Assembly: GCA_937951485.1 (NCBI GenBank) | Contig: CALEDJ010000016.1 | Span: 1-64,000, forward strand | Direction: 5' to 3' | DNA from: an uncultured bacterium | GTDB taxonomy: Bacteria > Hydrogenedentota > Hydrogenedentia > Hydrogenedentales > CAILVY01 | DNA length: 64,000 bases | Shown here: positions 14,814 to 23,320 of the stretch, piece after piece | Layout of the letters: every line of letters begins with the position of its first letter | How positions within the stretch are numbered: position 1 is the first letter of the stretch | Notes under the pieces: model-generated | What the model saw: only the letters and a program-made list of their open reading frames with translations | Told to the model about the DNA's origin: nothing | Databases searched by the model: none | Program-made: the position numbers and the translations under genes

Positions 14814-17057
14814 ATGAATCGGAGAGATTTCATGAAACAGGCCACGGGCGGGATGGTCGCGCTGGGCGGAGGCGTGTATCTGGTCGGCGCGGACAACGCC
14901 GGCGCATCAGTGGCGGCGCACGCTGCGTTGCGGCGCTGGGGTGCTCCCTGGCGGCCGGAATCCCCCAGACGCCTGAGTGATGTGACCCATGCCTTGGCGC
15001 AGCGCGCCATCGGCGGCGAACACGGCCGGATCATGGCTCACGCGGATTTTCGCCTCAATGATGATGAGATGATCGGACTTTCCCCCGACATGCGCTATGC
15101 GGCGGCCTGTATGTTGGTCGCAGAAAAAGCCCCGCTGCGGGTTCTGCCCGGAGAGCGCATTATCGGGTCGGCCACTTTGCTGGAAGCCCCGGAGCACAAC
15201 ACTCCGGTGGCCAACGTTGCCAGTGTCAGCCATACCACACTGGGTTTTGACCGCGTTCTCAAAGAAGGCTACCAGGGGATTCGCAACATGATTGAGGCCC
15301 GTCTCGCGCGGGGGGGGCTGGACAACGGCGGCGAAGACCTGCTGCGCGCGATGTTGCGCTGTCTCGATGCCGCCGGGGTGTGGCATGCGCGCCACATGAT
15401 GCTGCTGGAAGAGCGCATTGCCGCGTCGGACGGTGAGGAGCGGGCGAATTACATCAAAGTTCGCGATGCGCTGCGCCATGTTCCGGAACAGCCCGCTTCC
15501 AATTTCCACGAAGCCGTGCAGTCGCTTTGGTTCGCCTATGCGTTTCAGCGGCTCATGGGGACATGGTCCGGCATCGGCCGCATTGACGAAATGCTTGGAC
15601 CATATCTCCGGCGGGATTTGCAGGAAAGCCGCCTGACCCTCGATGAAGCCCGGGAAATCCTCGCGCATTTCTGGATCAAGGGCTGCGAATGGGTCGGCGC
15701 GTTCGACACGCGCGGTTCCGGCGACGCCCAGCACTACCAGAACATCATTCTCAGCGGCATTGACGCGCAGGGATGCGACGTGACCAATGAAGTCACCTGG
15801 CTGGTGCTCGACATTGTGGAAGAACTGCACATCAGCGACTTTCCGATTGCCGTGCGCGTCAGCAAGCGTACGCCGGAATCGCTGTTCCGCCGCATTGCCG
15901 AGGTGCAGCGGCACGGCGGCGGCATCGTCGCGATTTACAATGAAGATGTGGTCATTGACGGCCTGGTCCAATTCGGGTACCCGCTGGAGGAGGCGCGCTG
16001 TTTCGCCAACGACGGTTGCTGGGAAGTGCTCATCCCCGGAAAAACCGCCTTCAGTTACGTGCCGTTCGACGCACTGGCGCTGTTGCATCAGACCCTGGGG
16101 CTTACGGATGAAGAGGAAGCCCCGCCCCAGTACCCCGATTTTGAAAGCCTTTACGCCGCGTTTGTCGGAAAACTACGCAAGCAGGTGGACGCTCACCACG
16201 CTATCGCGGACAACTGGGCGCTTCGCGGCGATCCTACACCGCTGGTATCCCTGCTGGTGCACGACTGCATCGAACGGGGACGGTCGTATTGTGATCGCGG
16301 TGCGCATTACACCGTCCTGGCCCCACACGCGGGCCGCCTTGCCAATGTCGCCAACAGTCTGCTCGTGCTGAAGCGATTGGTATATGAGGACGGTTTTCTT
16401 TCACTGCCCGATTTCGTCTCAATGCTGCGCAACGACTGGCAGGGCCAAGAGAACCTGCGGCAGATGATTCTCAACCGTTTCGATTTCTACGGCAATGACG
16501 CTGAGGAAGCGGATGCCATGGTCCAGCGGGTTTTTGACGACTATACCGCCATCGTTGCGGAAACGCGCGAACGCCACGGCGTGCTGCGGCCGGCGGGTAT
16601 CAGCACGTTTGGACGGGAAATCGTATGGAGCCAGCAGGACGCCCTGCGTAAAGCCACGGCCGACGGCCACCATGAAGGCGCGGTGCTCGCCACCAATTTC
16701 TCGCCATCCCCCGGCACGGATAAAAAGGGACCGACCGCCGTCATCCGCTCCTACTGCAAAATGGACTACCGCAAGACCCCGAACGGCGCCACGCTGGAAC
16801 TGAAGATTCATCCCGAAAGCGTAAAGGGCGATGCCGGCCGTGACGCCATCGTGGCCCTCATGCGCACTTTTGTGGAACTCGGCGGCTGGTTCCTCCATGT
16901 GGATGTGGTGGATTCCGCAATGCTTATTGATGCTCAACGCCACCCGGAAAAGTATCCCAACCTTGCCGTGCGCGTTGCGGGCTGGTCCGCGCGCTTCGCG
17001 ACGCTCAACAAAGACTGGCAGGACATGATTATCGCCCGGACCCAGCAGGTGCTGTAA
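14814..17057 (+). CDS. Tat-exported glycyl radical enzyme (pyruvate formate-lyase family)
   Basis: 747 residues. Both radical-enzyme hallmarks are present: the catalytic cysteine at residue 402 in FANDGCWEVLIPGK, and the C-terminal glycyl-radical loop VRVAGWSARF with Gly723, followed by NKDWQDMIIARTQQ. The family normally makes carbon-centred radicals in the anaerobic cytoplasm after activation by a radical-SAM activase. Here the N-terminus is NRRDFMKQATGGMVALGGG, a twin-arginine motif plus hydrophobic stretch, predicting export of the folded protein. No activase gene lies in this window. The substrate (lyase, dehydratase or decarboxylase type) cannot be told; the WEVLIPGK context differs from the GCVE seen in most dehydratases. 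It has its own promoter and stands alone. Confidence 0.85.
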   Translation: MNRRDFMKQATGGMVALGGGVYLVGADNAGASVAAHAALRRWGAPWRPESPRRLSDVTHALAQRAIGGEHGRIMAHADFRLNDDEMIGLSPDMRYAAACMLVAEKAPLRVLPGERIIGSATLLEAPEHNTPVANVASVSHTTLGFDRVLKEGYQGIRNMIEARLARGGLDNGGEDLLRAMLRCLDAAGVWHARHMMLLEERIAASDGEERANYIKVRDALRHVPEQPASNFHEAVQSLWFAYAFQRLMGTWSGIGRIDEMLGPYLRRDLQESRLTLDEAREILAHFWIKGCEWVGAFDTRGSGDAQHYQNIILSGIDAQGCDVTNEVTWLVLDIVEELHISDFPIAVRVSKRTPESLFRRIAEVQRHGGGIVAIYNEDVVIDGLVQFGYPLEEARCFANDGCWEVLIPGKTAFSYVPFDALALLHQTLGLTDEEEAPPQYPDFESLYAAFVGKLRKQVDAHHAIADNWALRGDPTPLVSLLVHDCIERGRSYCDRGAHYTVLAPHAGRLANVANSLLVLKRLVYEDGFLSLPDFVSMLRNDWQGQENLRQMILNRFDFYGNDAEEADAMVQRVFDDYTAIVAETRERHGVLRPAGISTFGREIVWSQQDALRKATADGHHEGAVLATNFSPSPGTDKKGPTAVIRSYCKMDYRKTPNGATLELKIHPESVKGDAGRDAIVALMRTFVELGGWFLHVDVVDSAMLIDAQRHPEKYPNLAVRVAGWSARFATLNKDWQDMIIARTQQVL

Positions 17058-17138
17058 AAACCGCAGTCCGCGCTTCACCACGCGGTGTTCAGTAGATAGA
17101 CTTGTTTTTTCGACGGCAAAAAAATACAATAGATCATC

Positions 17139-17186
17139 GGGGATGGGGTTCCCCTTAAACGCCTCAGTGGCTGATGACTCCTACTG
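17139..17186 (+). ncRNA. Fluoride riboswitch aptamer (crcB motif)
   Basis: The stretch shows the conserved fluoride-aptamer layout: GGGGATGGGGTTCCCC (17139-17154) for the first stem with the conserved GAUGG side, then TTAAACGCC, a short stem closed by CAGT, and GGCTGATGACTCCTACTG to the end. It matches the crcB consensus closely (GGNGATGG, then AACGCC, then GGCTGATGACTCCTAC). Its 3' strand overlaps the left arm of the terminator at 17177-17214, so fluoride binding should block terminator formation and switch on the antiporter gene at 17293. Confidence 0.92.
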
Positions 17187-17214
17187 TGTCGAAAGGCGCG
17201 GTGGGAGTTTTTTT
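17177..17214 (+). terminator. Riboswitch-controlled intrinsic terminator
   Basis: ACTCCTACTG (17177-17186) pairs with CGGTGGGAGT (17199-17208) over ten positions with two G-T wobbles, then a run of seven T (17208-17214). The left arm is shared with the 3' end of the fluoride aptamer, making the two structures mutually exclusive. This is the expression platform of a transcriptional ON switch. Confidence 0.9.
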
Positions 17215-17292
17215 ATGTGTCTCCCGCCGAAACAGGGTTCCCCCTCGTCTTTCAAATTTACCGCAGAGATAAAAACTGTCGGGAGAATACGC

Positions 17293-18534
17293 ATGGAATC
17301 GGCATTCACAACAGCAACGATATGGATGGGACTGGCGCTGCTTGCCACAATACTCGCGAGTCATCTGCGTATCTCCGTGGCCTTGCTGGAAATCTGCGTG
17401 GGTATCGCGGCGGGTTTTGTGACGGATTATTGGTTCGGTGAGGGAGCGCTTGGCGGGGACCTGCCCTGGTTGCGTTTTATCGCAGGCACAGGTGCGGTCG
17501 TGCTCACGTTTCTCGCCGGGGCGGAACTGGAACCCGCCGTGCTGCGTCGCAAATGGAAGGAAGTCAGCGTCGTCGGCATTATTGGCTTCTTATCGCCCTT
17601 CCTGGGATGCGCGGCTGTGGCGCATTACCTTCTGGGTTGGGAACCGCGCGCGAGTCTTCTGGCGGGGGTCGCGCTGTCCACCACTTCCATGGCCGTCGTA
17701 TACGCGGTCATGCTGGAAACCGGCTTCAATCAAACGGATTTTGGCAAGGGGATACTGGGTGCATGTTTCATTAATGACCTTGGTACCGTCGTAGCGCTGG
17801 GGATTCTTTTCGCCCCATTCACTTACAAGACGGTTGTGTTCACAGTAATCTGCCTCATTGCCCTGGTGACGCTTCCTTTCATTACATCGCGATTGATCCA
17901 TCGCTACGCATTTCATACCGCCGCGGTCAGAACAAAATGGGTATTATTTGTTCTATTCGGGCTGGGTGCGCTGGCGCTGTGGTCCGGCAGCGAAGCAGTG
18001 CTGCCCGCGTATCTGGTGGGCATGGCCCTGGCAGGTGTCGCCGCACAGGATCATCACTGGGTGCGCCGCTTGCGGACCCTCACCATCGGGCTGTTAACCC
18101 CCTTCTATTTCATTCGCGCCGGTTCGCTTGTGTCATTGCCTGCCGTGCTGAGCGCCCCGATGGTGTTCCTGGCGCTTTTGGGCGGGAAGGTTGTCTCCAA
18201 GATTTTCGGCCTGTATCCGGTTATCGGCCGCTTCCACCGCGAAGACACCTCACGCTGGTATTATACCCTGTTGATGTCCACAGGGCTGACATTCGGCACC
18301 ATCTCGGCGTTATATGGCTATGCGAATAACATCATCACGCGGGACCAGTACTCTTTCCTGGTGGCGGTGGTTATCGGCAGCGCGGTGATTCCCACCATGA
18401 TCGCCGGTTTTTTCTTCCTGCCCCGGCACCTTCTGCCCAGGAGACCCATCGGCGATGAGGAACTCCCTCAATTGGAAATCATCTCCATGCAGGAACCGGA
18501 AAACGGCGCCAGCCCGAATCTTGACGAGGAATAA
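17293..18534 (+). CDS. CPA2-type cation/proton antiporter under fluoride riboswitch control
   Basis: 413 residues from the ATG at 17293 with GGGAGA at 17281-17286; the open frame runs upstream through the riboswitch and is not coding there. About 12 to 13 membrane helices cover residues 5-385 in the Na+/H+ exchanger (CPA2/KefB-like) fold. FLAGAELEP and CFINDLGTV lie at the places where the family carries ion-binding acidic residues. There is no C-terminal RCK/TrkA-N nucleotide domain, only a short acidic tail. Antiporters of this type are one of the known gene classes behind fluoride riboswitches, so a role in fluoride tolerance, by fluoride export or by pH/cation compensation, is likely. Confidence 0.88.
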   Translation: MESAFTTATIWMGLALLATILASHLRISVALLEICVGIAAGFVTDYWFGEGALGGDLPWLRFIAGTGAVVLTFLAGAELEPAVLRRKWKEVSVVGIIGFLSPFLGCAAVAHYLLGWEPRASLLAGVALSTTSMAVVYAVMLETGFNQTDFGKGILGACFINDLGTVVALGILFAPFTYKTVVFTVICLIALVTLPFITSRLIHRYAFHTAAVRTKWVLFVLFGLGALALWSGSEAVLPAYLVGMALAGVAAQDHHWVRRLRTLTIGLLTPFYFIRAGSLVSLPAVLSAPMVFLALLGGKVVSKIFGLYPVIGRFHREDTSRWYYTLLMSTGLTFGTISALYGYANNIITRDQYSFLVAVVIGSAVIPTMIAGFFFLPRHLLPRRPIGDEELPQLEIISMQEPENGASPNLDEE

Positions 18535-18655: not shown

Positions 18656-18839
18656 ATGCACTGGCGCGTCACTATTGAACAGGATGGGGATGGCGTATTC
18701 CATCTCTCAAGGTGACACACAAGAGGAAGCGCTGAAGAACATTAAAGACGCCACCGCGGGATACCTCGAAAGCCTGAAAAAGCACGGAGAGGCAATACCA
18801 CCACCGATTCAGGAAGAACTTGTCGAGATTACGATGTGA
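18656..18839 (+). pseudogene. hicB: Decayed hicB antitoxin gene
   Basis: Translation begins MHWRVTIEQDGDGVF, the HicB opening (RV.IEQDEDGVF), but meets TGA at 18713. The rest of HicB, GDTQEEALKNIKDA and YLESLKKHGEAIPPP to VEITM, continues in the next frame to the stop at 18837-18839. About ten residues that normally link the halves (the AECPSLPGC region) are missing, so a deletion and frame change inactivated the gene. A short in-frame ATG at 18684 could still make a 51-residue fragment. It overlaps the hicA remnant. Confidence 0.78.
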
Positions 18840-19058
18840 CTTCCCTTCCCGTTGTGTCTGGTCGGGAAGCCGTTCGCGTGTTTGAACGGCTCGGCTATGT
18901 TGTTGATCATCAAACGGGCAGTCATTATCTTGCGAAGAACCGAAGCGCCAAATCGGCGCATGACGGTTCCAAACCAAAAAGAAATCGCCAAGGGAACACT
19001 TCGCGGGTTGATTCGCGAGTCCGGAATTACTGTAGATGCCTTCTGTAAATCGGTTTGA
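18836..19058 (+). pseudogene. hicA: Decayed hicA toxin gene
   Basis: The GTG at 18836 overlaps the end of hicB. The first half reads LPVVSGREAVRVFERLGYVV then QTGSH, the HicA core with its catalytic Gly-Ser-His. After SH the frame is lost; the second half, ILRRTEAPNRRMTVPNQKEI then GTLRGLIRESGITVDAF, continues in another frame to TGA at 19056-19058. A loss of two bases near 18930 would explain this. HicA normally cleaves mRNA. With both partners broken, the module is very probably dead. Confidence 0.75.
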
Positions 19059-19174
19059 TCGTTACAGAGATTGCCAACTCTCCGCTTGCGCGGAAAACAC
19101 CAGATTCCGCTTAGCACCCTGTTCTTGTGTTTCATTCCCCCGCAAGCAAAAAACGAGCAAGGGAAAAACACTGA

Positions 19175-20467: not shown

Positions 20468-22108
20468 TCAGGCGGTTGCGCTCAGGTCCAGCCACTGAAT
20501 GCCGGCGCGTTTGAGGGCATATCCGGTTTCGCGCAGGTAGTTGCCGTAGCAGGTCATCCAGTGGAAACCGTGCATTTCCTCAAGCAACCGCCGGCTGTCG
20601 GCGTTCATGCCGATGTCCACCTGACTGGTGCAGATGTCGAGCGCAGGGTTTTCCAATACTTTTCCCGTAAAACCGAGCCACCGCTCGCCGGAGAACGCGG
20701 GAACCAGCAGCGTCATCTCCTGTCCCGGCCGCATGGCGACCTTGGGGGCCGCGCCATAATCGGACTCGAAATGGGTGCGGATGGCGACATCTTCATAGTG
20801 TTCGCCATCCATTTTTCGGGGCGCGGTGCAATGCGCAATGGTGACCATGTTGTTGTGTGGATAGGTCGGATTGCAGAAGAACACCGGCTTGCCCGAGATG
20901 TAATGCAACAAGATGCCGGAGGGAATCACTACAAAATCGGATTCACAGAAGGCCATGCAACCGGCATCGTTCAACAGGGTCAGGCACATGCATGCCGTGG
21001 TTTCCGACATGGGGATGATGGTGCCCATGCAATGCCCCACGGTCAGCGCATCAGTCTGATGTTCCGCCATGAGTCCGCGAAATACCTCGGTGAGCACGAA
21101 AGCGTTATCCACAAAGCGCCTCATGTGTTCGAGCGTCTGTGGGGAACCGCGTCCCGCGAGGAGTTCCGCCGTGGTGAGTTCCTCCTGCAGGGGGTACAGC
21201 GTCACGCCGGGTTGCGCGAGATATTCGCGGGCCTCTTCATGGCAACGCTGCACAAGAGCGCCGTCCGCACGCGCCGCCAGAATGCGCTCCTTCAGTTGGT
21301 CATAGGTCACTTCAATGATATCCATCCCCCATCGCTCCCGGGCATTCTGCGGGGCCTGACTGTTTCCGCCCTTGTCCCATCCGAGTGCGCCGCCGATGGC
21401 GATGATGCGTTTTCCGTAAATATTTTTCAGGCCGTGCAGGGCGCGCAGCCGCCAGAGCAGTTCGTCATGATCGTCCACCACGACGTCATGGATATCCATG
21501 CCGCCGGTACCCTGGAAACGATCCGTCTCACGGCGCAGGAAGCGGGGATGCACAATTTCGTACCAAAGGTATGCCGGGCCGGTCCTGTGGCGCACGAACA
21601 TCAGGTTCCACTTTTCCGGATTGGTCAATGCCATCAACAGGCCGGTGTGCCCGGACGCGCCATAGACGATCACGCCGTCATGGTCGCCTGCGGCGGCTTG
21701 TCGCGCTTCTTCGGTGTTTCGCACGGACAGCAGCGGCAACATTTCCAGGGGGAAGTCGATCCTGGCGCACATGGCCGCGATTTCTTCGCGAATCCGGCCC
21801 CGCTCCTGCTCGGCATGTTCCTCCGTGATCAGTCCCGACCAGCCGCGCCACGATGTCGCTTCATGTCGCTGGTAATGCTCATAGAGCAGCACCGGCTGCA
21901 TGCGCAGCGGCTTGTCTTGCAAGGTGACGCGCGCAGCCCCTGCCGATGCCGAGGCAAAGGGCATTGCGCGCATCTGATGGAGCACGGCGCCACCCAGCGC
22001 CGCCACGCCCGCCCCGGCCAGAAATTGCCGCCGCGATACGGCGGACACTCTCACCCCGCAGCATCCGGAAGCCGAACAATGGTGCCCATGTTCCTCGTGT
22101 TCATGCAT
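20468..22108 (-). CDS. Tat-exported L-fucose/L-arabinose isomerase-like protein with His/Cys-rich leader
   Basis: 546 residues from the ATG at 22108, with GGGAGAGG just before it on the minus strand; the longer open frame is unsupported. The protein starts MHEHEEHGHHCSASGCCG, then a twin-arginine motif (SRRQFLAGAGVAALGG) predicting Tat export. The mature part resembles the L-fucose isomerase-like superfamily: GVIVYGASGHTGLL, YGKRIIAIGGALGWDK, and a C-terminal half with CMGTIIPMSETTACMCLTLL and PCNPTYPHNN-like segments that would form the sugar/metal site. Such exported isomerase-like proteins occur in planctomycete-type genomes, but their reaction is unproven. The metal-rich leader ahead of the Tat motif is unusual. 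Confidence 0.7.
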   Translation of the reverse strand: MHEHEEHGHHCSASGCCGVRVSAVSRRQFLAGAGVAALGGAVLHQMRAMPFASASAGAARVTLQDKPLRMQPVLLYEHYQRHEATSWRGWSGLITEEHAEQERGRIREEIAAMCARIDFPLEMLPLLSVRNTEEARQAAAGDHDGVIVYGASGHTGLLMALTNPEKWNLMFVRHRTGPAYLWYEIVHPRFLRRETDRFQGTGGMDIHDVVVDDHDELLWRLRALHGLKNIYGKRIIAIGGALGWDKGGNSQAPQNARERWGMDIIEVTYDQLKERILAARADGALVQRCHEEAREYLAQPGVTLYPLQEELTTAELLAGRGSPQTLEHMRRFVDNAFVLTEVFRGLMAEHQTDALTVGHCMGTIIPMSETTACMCLTLLNDAGCMAFCESDFVVIPSGILLHYISGKPVFFCNPTYPHNNMVTIAHCTAPRKMDGEHYEDVAIRTHFESDYGAAPKVAMRPGQEMTLLVPAFSGERWLGFTGKVLENPALDICTSQVDIGMNADSRRLLEEMHGFHWMTCYGNYLRETGYALKRAGIQWLDLSATA

Positions 22109-22285
22109 GACCTCTCCCTTTCTCCGCGCGGCCTGCGGCCGCACTTGATTCCAGCTGCGCCAATACCCGCTGTGTGATGTCGTCCAACGTGAAATCAGCA
22201 TAGCAGAAATTTCTCTGTTCATGTAATCGCCCGCTGATTCATCGTCCTGCGGCATGTTATCATGGCAAAAGACAAAGGAAACCAT

Positions 22286-23320
22286 ATGCCGGGAAAGACA
22301 AGAAAAGCGCCTCAAGGCGATTACGAATCCCTTTACCGAGGATATATGGCTTTGACCCGGAAGATGGAGCAATTATCCGCGCTTCGAGAGATTGGCCTGG
22401 CAATCAGCGGCTCGCTGGATTTGGACGAAACGCTCGCTGCCATCGTCAATGTGGTTCAGGGGGCATTGGACGTGCGCCGCGTGACCATCTACACCCCGGA
22501 AAAGGAACGGGAATTGTTCCGCCCGGTGATTGCCAAATACGGCGAGGACCTGATTATGCGGGACCGACTCAATGAGGAAATCCTGCCGGGACGCGGCACA
22601 CCGCTGGGCGAGGCCATGGCGACATGCAACGTCGTGCTATGTCAAAGTCACGGAAACGGCGCAGCATATGTTCCGCTGATCGCCAAGAATGAGCCGCTGG
22701 GGGTGCTGTCGATCGAAGACCGCCGTGACGGCGCAGCGTTCAGCGCAGACGATGTGTCTTTTTTCCAGCAACTGGGGGCGCAGATCGCCATCGCCATCCA
22801 CAACGCGCAATTGTATGCGATGGCCGTGACCGACGGCTTGACCGGGCTGTATGTGCGGCGTTATTTCGATTTGCGCATGCAGGAGGAGTTTGCGCTGGCG
22901 CGCCGCTACAGACGCCCCTTTTCGATGCTGCTGTTCGATATTGACCATTTTAAGCGTTTCAATGACACCCACGGACACCAGGTCGGTGACATGGTCCTGC
23001 GGCAATTCGCGGAAATTCTGAGGAGAAATACCCGCCAATCCGATGTATGCTGTCGCTATGGCGGCGAGGAGATGGCTGTGATTCTGCCGGAAACGGGCCT
23101 GGATGAAGCGGCGCGAATTGCCGGTAAATTCTGCGCGCTTGTGCGGGATTATCCATTTCACGGGGATGGGAATCAGGCACTTTCCGTCACAACCAGCATT
23201 GGTGTCGCAGCCTATTGCACGGCGTATGAATCGCCGGGTACCATGGTACGCGCCGCTGATGAGGCCCTCTATCGCGCTAAAGAAAACGGCCGCAATCGAG
23301 TGGAATTGGCCGTAGATTGA
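22286..23320 (+). CDS. GAF-GGDEF diguanylate cyclase
   Basis: 344 residues from the ATG at 22286, which has AAGGA six nt before it; an upstream ATG at 22262 is possible but lacks such a site. A short coiled region is followed by a GAF sensor domain (about residues 30-175) and a GGDEF domain (about 185-344). The catalytic motif is GGEEM, with the substrate/metal segment FDIDHFKRFNDTHGH. An RQSD exactly five residues before GGEEM is a product-inhibition (I) site, so the enzyme should be active and feedback-controlled. It makes cyclic di-GMP in the cytoplasm in response to an unknown GAF ligand. It is divergent from the isomerase-like gene, and the HD-GYP protein at 41924 is a possible counteracting phosphodiesterase. 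Confidence 0.9.
   Translation: MPGKTRKAPQGDYESLYRGYMALTRKMEQLSALREIGLAISGSLDLDETLAAIVNVVQGALDVRRVTIYTPEKERELFRPVIAKYGEDLIMRDRLNEEILPGRGTPLGEAMATCNVVLCQSHGNGAAYVPLIAKNEPLGVLSIEDRRDGAAFSADDVSFFQQLGAQIAIAIHNAQLYAMAVTDGLTGLYVRRYFDLRMQEEFALARRYRRPFSMLLFDIDHFKRFNDTHGHQVGDMVLRQFAEILRRNTRQSDVCCRYGGEEMAVILPETGLDEAARIAGKFCALVRDYPFHGDGNQALSVTTSIGVAAYCTAYESPGTMVRAADEALYRAKENGRNRVELAVD

Follow-up and report, generated by a model that had tools for sequence, protein, structure and literature searches.

Does a protein of the CPA fold export fluoride, or does it protect the cell by proton/cation exchange alone? This testable question is raised by a 64,000-nucleotide stretch of DNA, analysed here as a whole and called the window, in which a fluoride riboswitch precedes the gene of a CPA2-type antiporter. 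The first-pass annotation had named the riboswitch and proposed the Rfam crcB model (RF01734) as a check on 17139-17186. A covariance-model search with that model returned a match at 17130-17190 on the plus strand. It scored 59.7 bits (E 4.7e-14; gathering score 34) and spanned the full model (1-64), which bears the annotation out. Of the extent first proposed, 17139-17214, the 3' end stands, as the switch including its terminator ends at about 17214; the 5' end does not, as the covariance-model match begins at 17130. No other Rfam family scored above threshold in the window, and the 4.55-Mb genome contained no further RF01734 match. The locus comprises the following features, in window positions:

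17102..17130, plus strand: likely promoter, TTGTTT (17102-17107), a 17-nt spacer and TACAAT (17125-17130), found by eye
17130..17190, plus strand: fluoride riboswitch aptamer (RF01734), from the covariance model with pairing and covariation on 26 relatives
17139-17142 with 17151-17154: aptamer stem
17161-17163 with 17169-17171: aptamer stem
17145-17149 (GGGGT) with 17177-17181 (ACTCC): aptamer pseudoknot
17176..17214, plus strand: intrinsic terminator, stem 17176-17190/17195-17209, GAAA loop, T-run to 17214
17280..17292, plus strand: probable ribosome-binding region, GGGAG about 8 nt before the ATG, found by eye
17293..18534, plus strand: CPA2-fold antiporter P0001, 413 aa, ATG at 17293, PF00999 E 2e-32

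The window's aptamer has both stems and the pseudoknot of RF01734 intact, retains all the conserved positions, and scores among the highest that we found. Across 26 aptamers of related loci the three helices, pseudoknot included, pair at 98.4%; when the register is slid as a control, pairing falls to 40-65%. Eight of the 12 aptamer pairs show changes on both sides among these 26 sequences, a count equalled by none of 500 shuffles.

The terminator scan identified a hairpin of 15 pairs (folding z = -5.7) whose 5' arm includes the pseudoknot strand ACTCC. Since the terminator at 17176-17209 reuses this strand, the arrangement is predicted to be a transcriptional ON switch, in agreement with the first-pass annotation, which had described both a terminator sharing the aptamer's 3' strand and ON logic. 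By its anatomy, the locus would be a fluoride-induced transcription switch, and from this anatomy we infer that fluoride turns the gene on. In many relatives the aptamer's 3' strand is likewise common to a terminator or a ribosome-binding site. The terminator-type fluoride riboswitches of Weinberg 2010 and Baker 2012 have the same aptamer consensus, covarying pseudoknot, terminator overlap and ON logic; the difference here is that a CPA2 antiporter is the genome's sole fluoride-riboswitch gene. Directly 5' of the aptamer, TTGTTT-N17-TACAAT may be the promoter; it lies under the promoter scan's 9-of-12 threshold and is hence a weak candidate.

The gene product, P0001, carries a single Pfam domain (PF00999). 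Its predicted model (pLDDT 80) has 13 helices and a disordered C-terminus, with helix breaks at 129-132 (TM4, unwound at S129-S132) and 329-332 (TM11), and thus combines the Na_H_Exchanger domain with the NhaA-type fold with unwound TM4 and TM11 that defines CPA2 membership. A PDB fold search with this model placed NapA and KefC first, and NapA is the closest solved relative by sequence as well as by fold (fold E 4e-11); together with the Pfam match, this upholds the earlier assignment as a CPA2-type antiporter. Against the NCBI CPA2 subfamily model, TIGR00932, the protein scored 95.8 bits, short of the curated cut-off of 238.3, so P0001 is a divergent CPA2 protein whose label rests on fold and motif.

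The motif is well conserved among 81 relatives. D162 (TM5) is kept in 79 of them, K299 and K303 (TM10) in all, and TTS (130-132) in nearly all; position 157 is Ala or Ser, and position 161 is Asn (54) or Thr (27) and never acidic. The P0001 group conforms to the CPA2 motif of Masrati 2018 (Asp at 7, Lys/Arg at 8, no Glu at 5). The acid at motif position 6 that marks electrogenic NapA/NhaA-type antiporters is missing, with Asn or Thr in 81/81, and CPA2 proteins without it are expected to be electroneutral (Masrati 2018, PMC6181914), which leads us to predict the same of P0001. TtNapA and KefC (4bwz, 5bz2, 8bxg) share the fold and the core Asp/Lys with P0001, NapA being 20-21% identical in the fold alignment. 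NapA, however, has an Asp-Asp pair and is electrogenic, where the P0001 group has Asn/Thr-Asp, and the C-terminal RCK/TrkA_N domain of KefC and Kef K+ efflux proteins is absent from P0001. The TM4 stretch TTSM matches neither the listed Na+ type nor the listed K+ type and so indicates no cation preference. Judged by the CPA motif, P0001 is most likely an electroneutral monovalent-cation/H+ exchanger.

We compared relatives of P0001 to assess how widely the fluoride linkage recurs. A mixed set of 14 relatives (59-71% identity) was fetched from other phyla, namely Planctomycetota, Myxococcota, Thermodesulfobacteriota, Omnitrophota and Actinomycetota, and RF01734 lies directly 5' on the same strand in 11 of the 14 loci. 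In the two Actinomycetota copies the riboswitch heads a riboswitch-dynamin-CPA2 operon in which the antiporter gene comes second, and one Myxococcales copy has no fluoride riboswitch. A sub-threshold riboswitch was sought at L003 and none was found even at E up to 1. The sample of the window's own phylum comprised 68 genomes, all of one order, 15 of which have a fluoride riboswitch. Eight of these riboswitches lead straight into the CPA2 subfamily and one into an operon containing it; the others precede another CPA antiporter (three), crcB (two) or a dynamin-like GTPase (one). Viewed from the gene, 11 own-phylum genomes encode the subfamily, with the riboswitch upstream in 8/11 plus the one operon. 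The subfamily occurs in 59/395 Desulfobacterota genomes, with a riboswitch within 700 nt in 44 of the 60 loci that had enough upstream sequence. In all, riboswitch and antiporter are linked in dozens of genomes, spread over six phyla or more and with protein identities of 35-73%, which cannot plausibly have arisen by chance. The relatives of P0001 (37-73% identity) therefore form a fluoride-dedicated CPA2 subfamily, mostly under riboswitch control.

These counts bear on two points of the first-pass annotation. It had called antiporters a rarer target, which does not hold: 12 of the 15 own-phylum riboswitches lead to an antiporter, and Na+/H+ antiporters are the next-most-common riboswitch-associated class after exporters, according to PMC11139923, citing Baker 2012. 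It had also asked whether other fluoride-linked antiporters cluster with this one, and P0001 does group with many antiporters behind fluoride riboswitches.

At L026:1501-3000 (G057) the riboswitch is followed by a 161-aa ORF, a DUF6062 protein and then the CPA2 antiporter, all on the same strand, and an nhaA-I RNA motif (RF03057) lies just past a fluoride-riboswitch CPA2 gene at L129:2920-2976. A second CPA antiporter type stands behind fluoride riboswitches in the window's phylum (L022:1650-2924, L028:1709-2911, L030:1699-2946). No similarity of this type to P0001 was detected by tblastn, its nearest NCBIfam model is a potassium/proton antiporter at a score under the cut-off, and all three genomes are without CrcB.

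The first-pass annotation had also proposed looking for crcB or ClC-F elsewhere in the genome, and neither was found in the assembly. The search for CrcB/Fluc (PF02537) gave no match in the window's genome, with positive-control matches in 10/14 genomes; as the assembly is 94% complete, absence is likely rather than certain. The genome's sole CLC is a ClcA-type chloride exchanger (NF003640, 430 bits against a cut-off of 350). It carries GSGIP and GREGP, its best PDB match is a Cl- exchanger with CLC-F far down the list, and it has none of the CLC-F signatures GNNLI/GMGLI, GREGT/V and GEVTP named in PMC11139923. No other gene of this genome has a fluoride riboswitch, and the assembly yielded none of the known fluoride exporters.

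We favor the reading in which a fluoride-ON switch controls a fluoride-dedicated electroneutral cation/H+ exchanger that counters HF entry, and put its probability at roughly 0.55. Without fluoride, the GACTCC strand would be captured by the terminator and transcription would stop at about 17214. Binding of fluoride and Mg would lock this strand in the pseudoknot and allow the antiporter to be made, an ON step suggested by the conserved architecture and the published mechanism of the riboswitch class. The product, going by its CPA motif, would move protons against K+ or Na+ electroneutrally, and this exchange would offset the acid load or collapse the pH gradient that drives HF entry and F- trapping. 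Counting against this reading, these free-living cells would be without any fluoride exporter if the protein did nothing but regulate pH, and an exporter is present in >85% of surveyed strains (PMC11139923).

The main alternative is that the antiporter itself exports fluoride, by F-/H+ antiport or F-/cation coupling for example, which would make the CPA fold a third bacterial family of exporters; we consider this possible but rather unlikely. It is favored by the riboswitch being the main controller across the subfamily and by the anti-correlation with CrcB. CrcB is present in 175/395 Desulfobacterota genomes, in 10/59 of those with the CPA2 gene vs 165/336 of those without (Fisher p 3e-6, computed without a species tree on genomes many of which are incomplete bins). 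In the own phylum CrcB occurs in 35/68 genomes, 1/11 with CPA2 vs 34/57 without (p 0.003), and in the mixed set it occurs in 2/14. Permuting CrcB within own-phylum taxonomic families weakened this, however, giving p 0.21 for this CPA2 alone and p 0.03 with all fluoride-linked antiporters pooled, so the exclusion is partly a matter of lineage, to which shared ancestry may contribute; we therefore dropped the exclusion statistics as proof.

The CLC proteins examined from CPA2 genomes likewise lack a CLC-F signature. The exceptions are L111, of which too little is present for an assignment, and the G182 proteins L191/L199 (GREGS), possibly divergent CLC-F in a genome that has CrcB. Two candidates for a hidden CLC-F, L109 (closest to CLC-F in the PDB) and the similar L096, were rejected, all three signatures being missing. 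Only two bacterial types of fluoride exporter are known, Fluc and CLC-F, and they are usually mutually exclusive (PMC11139923, a 2024 review), a further point in favor of direct export. With these exporters the subfamily shares riboswitch control, the fluoride setting and near-exclusive occurrence in genomes; it differs in that their folds are unrelated to that of P0001, which has none of their signatures.

A tree separates two groups that bear directly on the choice. The window's clade comprises 37 proteins (support 100) from at least six phyla, and CrcB co-occurs in two of its genomes only, both Actinomycetota. This pattern, with no CLC-F signature in the CLCs examined, would be expected of a replacement exporter and argues against a pH regulator. 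The clade also carries a specific charge switch, E211 to A and E213 to R, which again favors export. In the neighbor group (L068, L130-L136), by contrast, CrcB co-occurs in 7/8 genomes. The operon order CPA2-UspA-CrcB was read in L068, L131 and L135 and follows from coordinates in L134; DUF190 comes next in L068, and a protein with the same start sequence is present in L134 and L135. The core residues of this CrcB-operon group are the same as those of the stand-alone clade, which fits a helper function other than F- export, and a second exporter would be redundant beside CrcB. The retained core for H+/cation exchange also speaks against export, and we know of no anion transport by CPA proteins. 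That the stand-alone clade is a third exporter family that moves F- or HF out by a CPA2 fold and replaces Fluc and CLC-F in several phyla is, on this balance, slightly more doubtful still. The conserved cation-exchange core and the CrcB co-operons of the neighbor group support cation/H+ exchange as the preferred reading, and the CrcB-operon relatives offer a ready comparison for the stand-alone clade.

One member of the neighbor group, the G003 copy (L068), has two stop codons in the match and an adjacent crcB, and a decayed gene replaced by crcB was considered. We rejected this because the stops fall where the alignment ends on its C-terminal side and the contig edge truncates the gene at 5'; L068 sits in a CPA2-UspA-CrcB-DUF190 operon. 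Genes for enolase, a known fluoride target, occur near fluoride-linked CPA2 genes at L003, L005, L007, L009, L123, L131, L136, L153 and L154; with the CrcB operons, these neighbors speak for the fluoride dedication of the subfamily.

That P0001 is a plain housekeeping antiporter (Na+/H+ or K+/H+) placed behind a fluoride riboswitch by accident is very improbable: CPA2 proteins are common and the PF00999 and TIGR00932 assignments are generic, but recurrence in dozens of genomes across six or more phyla is far beyond chance for about one site per genome. Marginally less credible again is that the switch is a degenerate relic or acts at another level than transcription termination. In some relatives this strand does pair with the ribosome-binding site and not with a terminator, but the window has a strong terminator with a T-run and an aptamer with intact conserved positions and a top-range score.

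Antiporters are already known as fluoride-riboswitch targets. The same kind of target is a published class: Na+/H+ antiporters are covered in PMC11139923, and K+ transport genes behind the fluoride motif were listed by Weinberg 2010 (PMC2864571). Riboswitch-linked antiporters are read as serving pH homeostasis (PMC11139923) beside an exporter, whereas the subfamily defined here is used on its own, with neither Fluc nor CLC-F. The fluoride-dedicated CPA2 subfamily and this stand-alone use are new, in that we found neither in a literature search of papers outside subscription, which also gave no paper on CPA2 together with the fluoride riboswitch; together they may represent an overlooked bacterial way of handling fluoride. 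The sequence signature could serve to re-annotate genomes scored as lacking a fluoride exporter.

In three phyla or more, fluoride riboswitches are also followed by genes of dynamin-like GTPases (PF00350 where tested), which often diverge from the CPA2 antiporter gene or share an operon with it. A search of the same non-subscription literature for dynamin together with the fluoride riboswitch returned no paper naming both. The loci are:

L008:1133-3008, L012:1112-2979, L014:1-1848, L010:1-1124 and L011:1-493: dynamin-like GTPase genes
L007, L143, L149, L156, L157 and L024: further dynamin loci

Three neighbors within the window drew our attention. PF02901 and PF01228 mark the product of 14814-17057, directly upstream of the riboswitch, as a glycyl radical enzyme; it has an apparent twin-arginine signal (MNRRDFMKQATGG), which is odd in an oxygen-sensitive, cytoplasmic class of enzymes. 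The 634-aa product of 20468-22372 on the minus strand matched no Pfam family and also carries a twin-arginine-like signal. At 18657-19060, two short overlapping frames resemble, by eye, a HicB/HicA toxin-antitoxin pair, possibly frameshifted.
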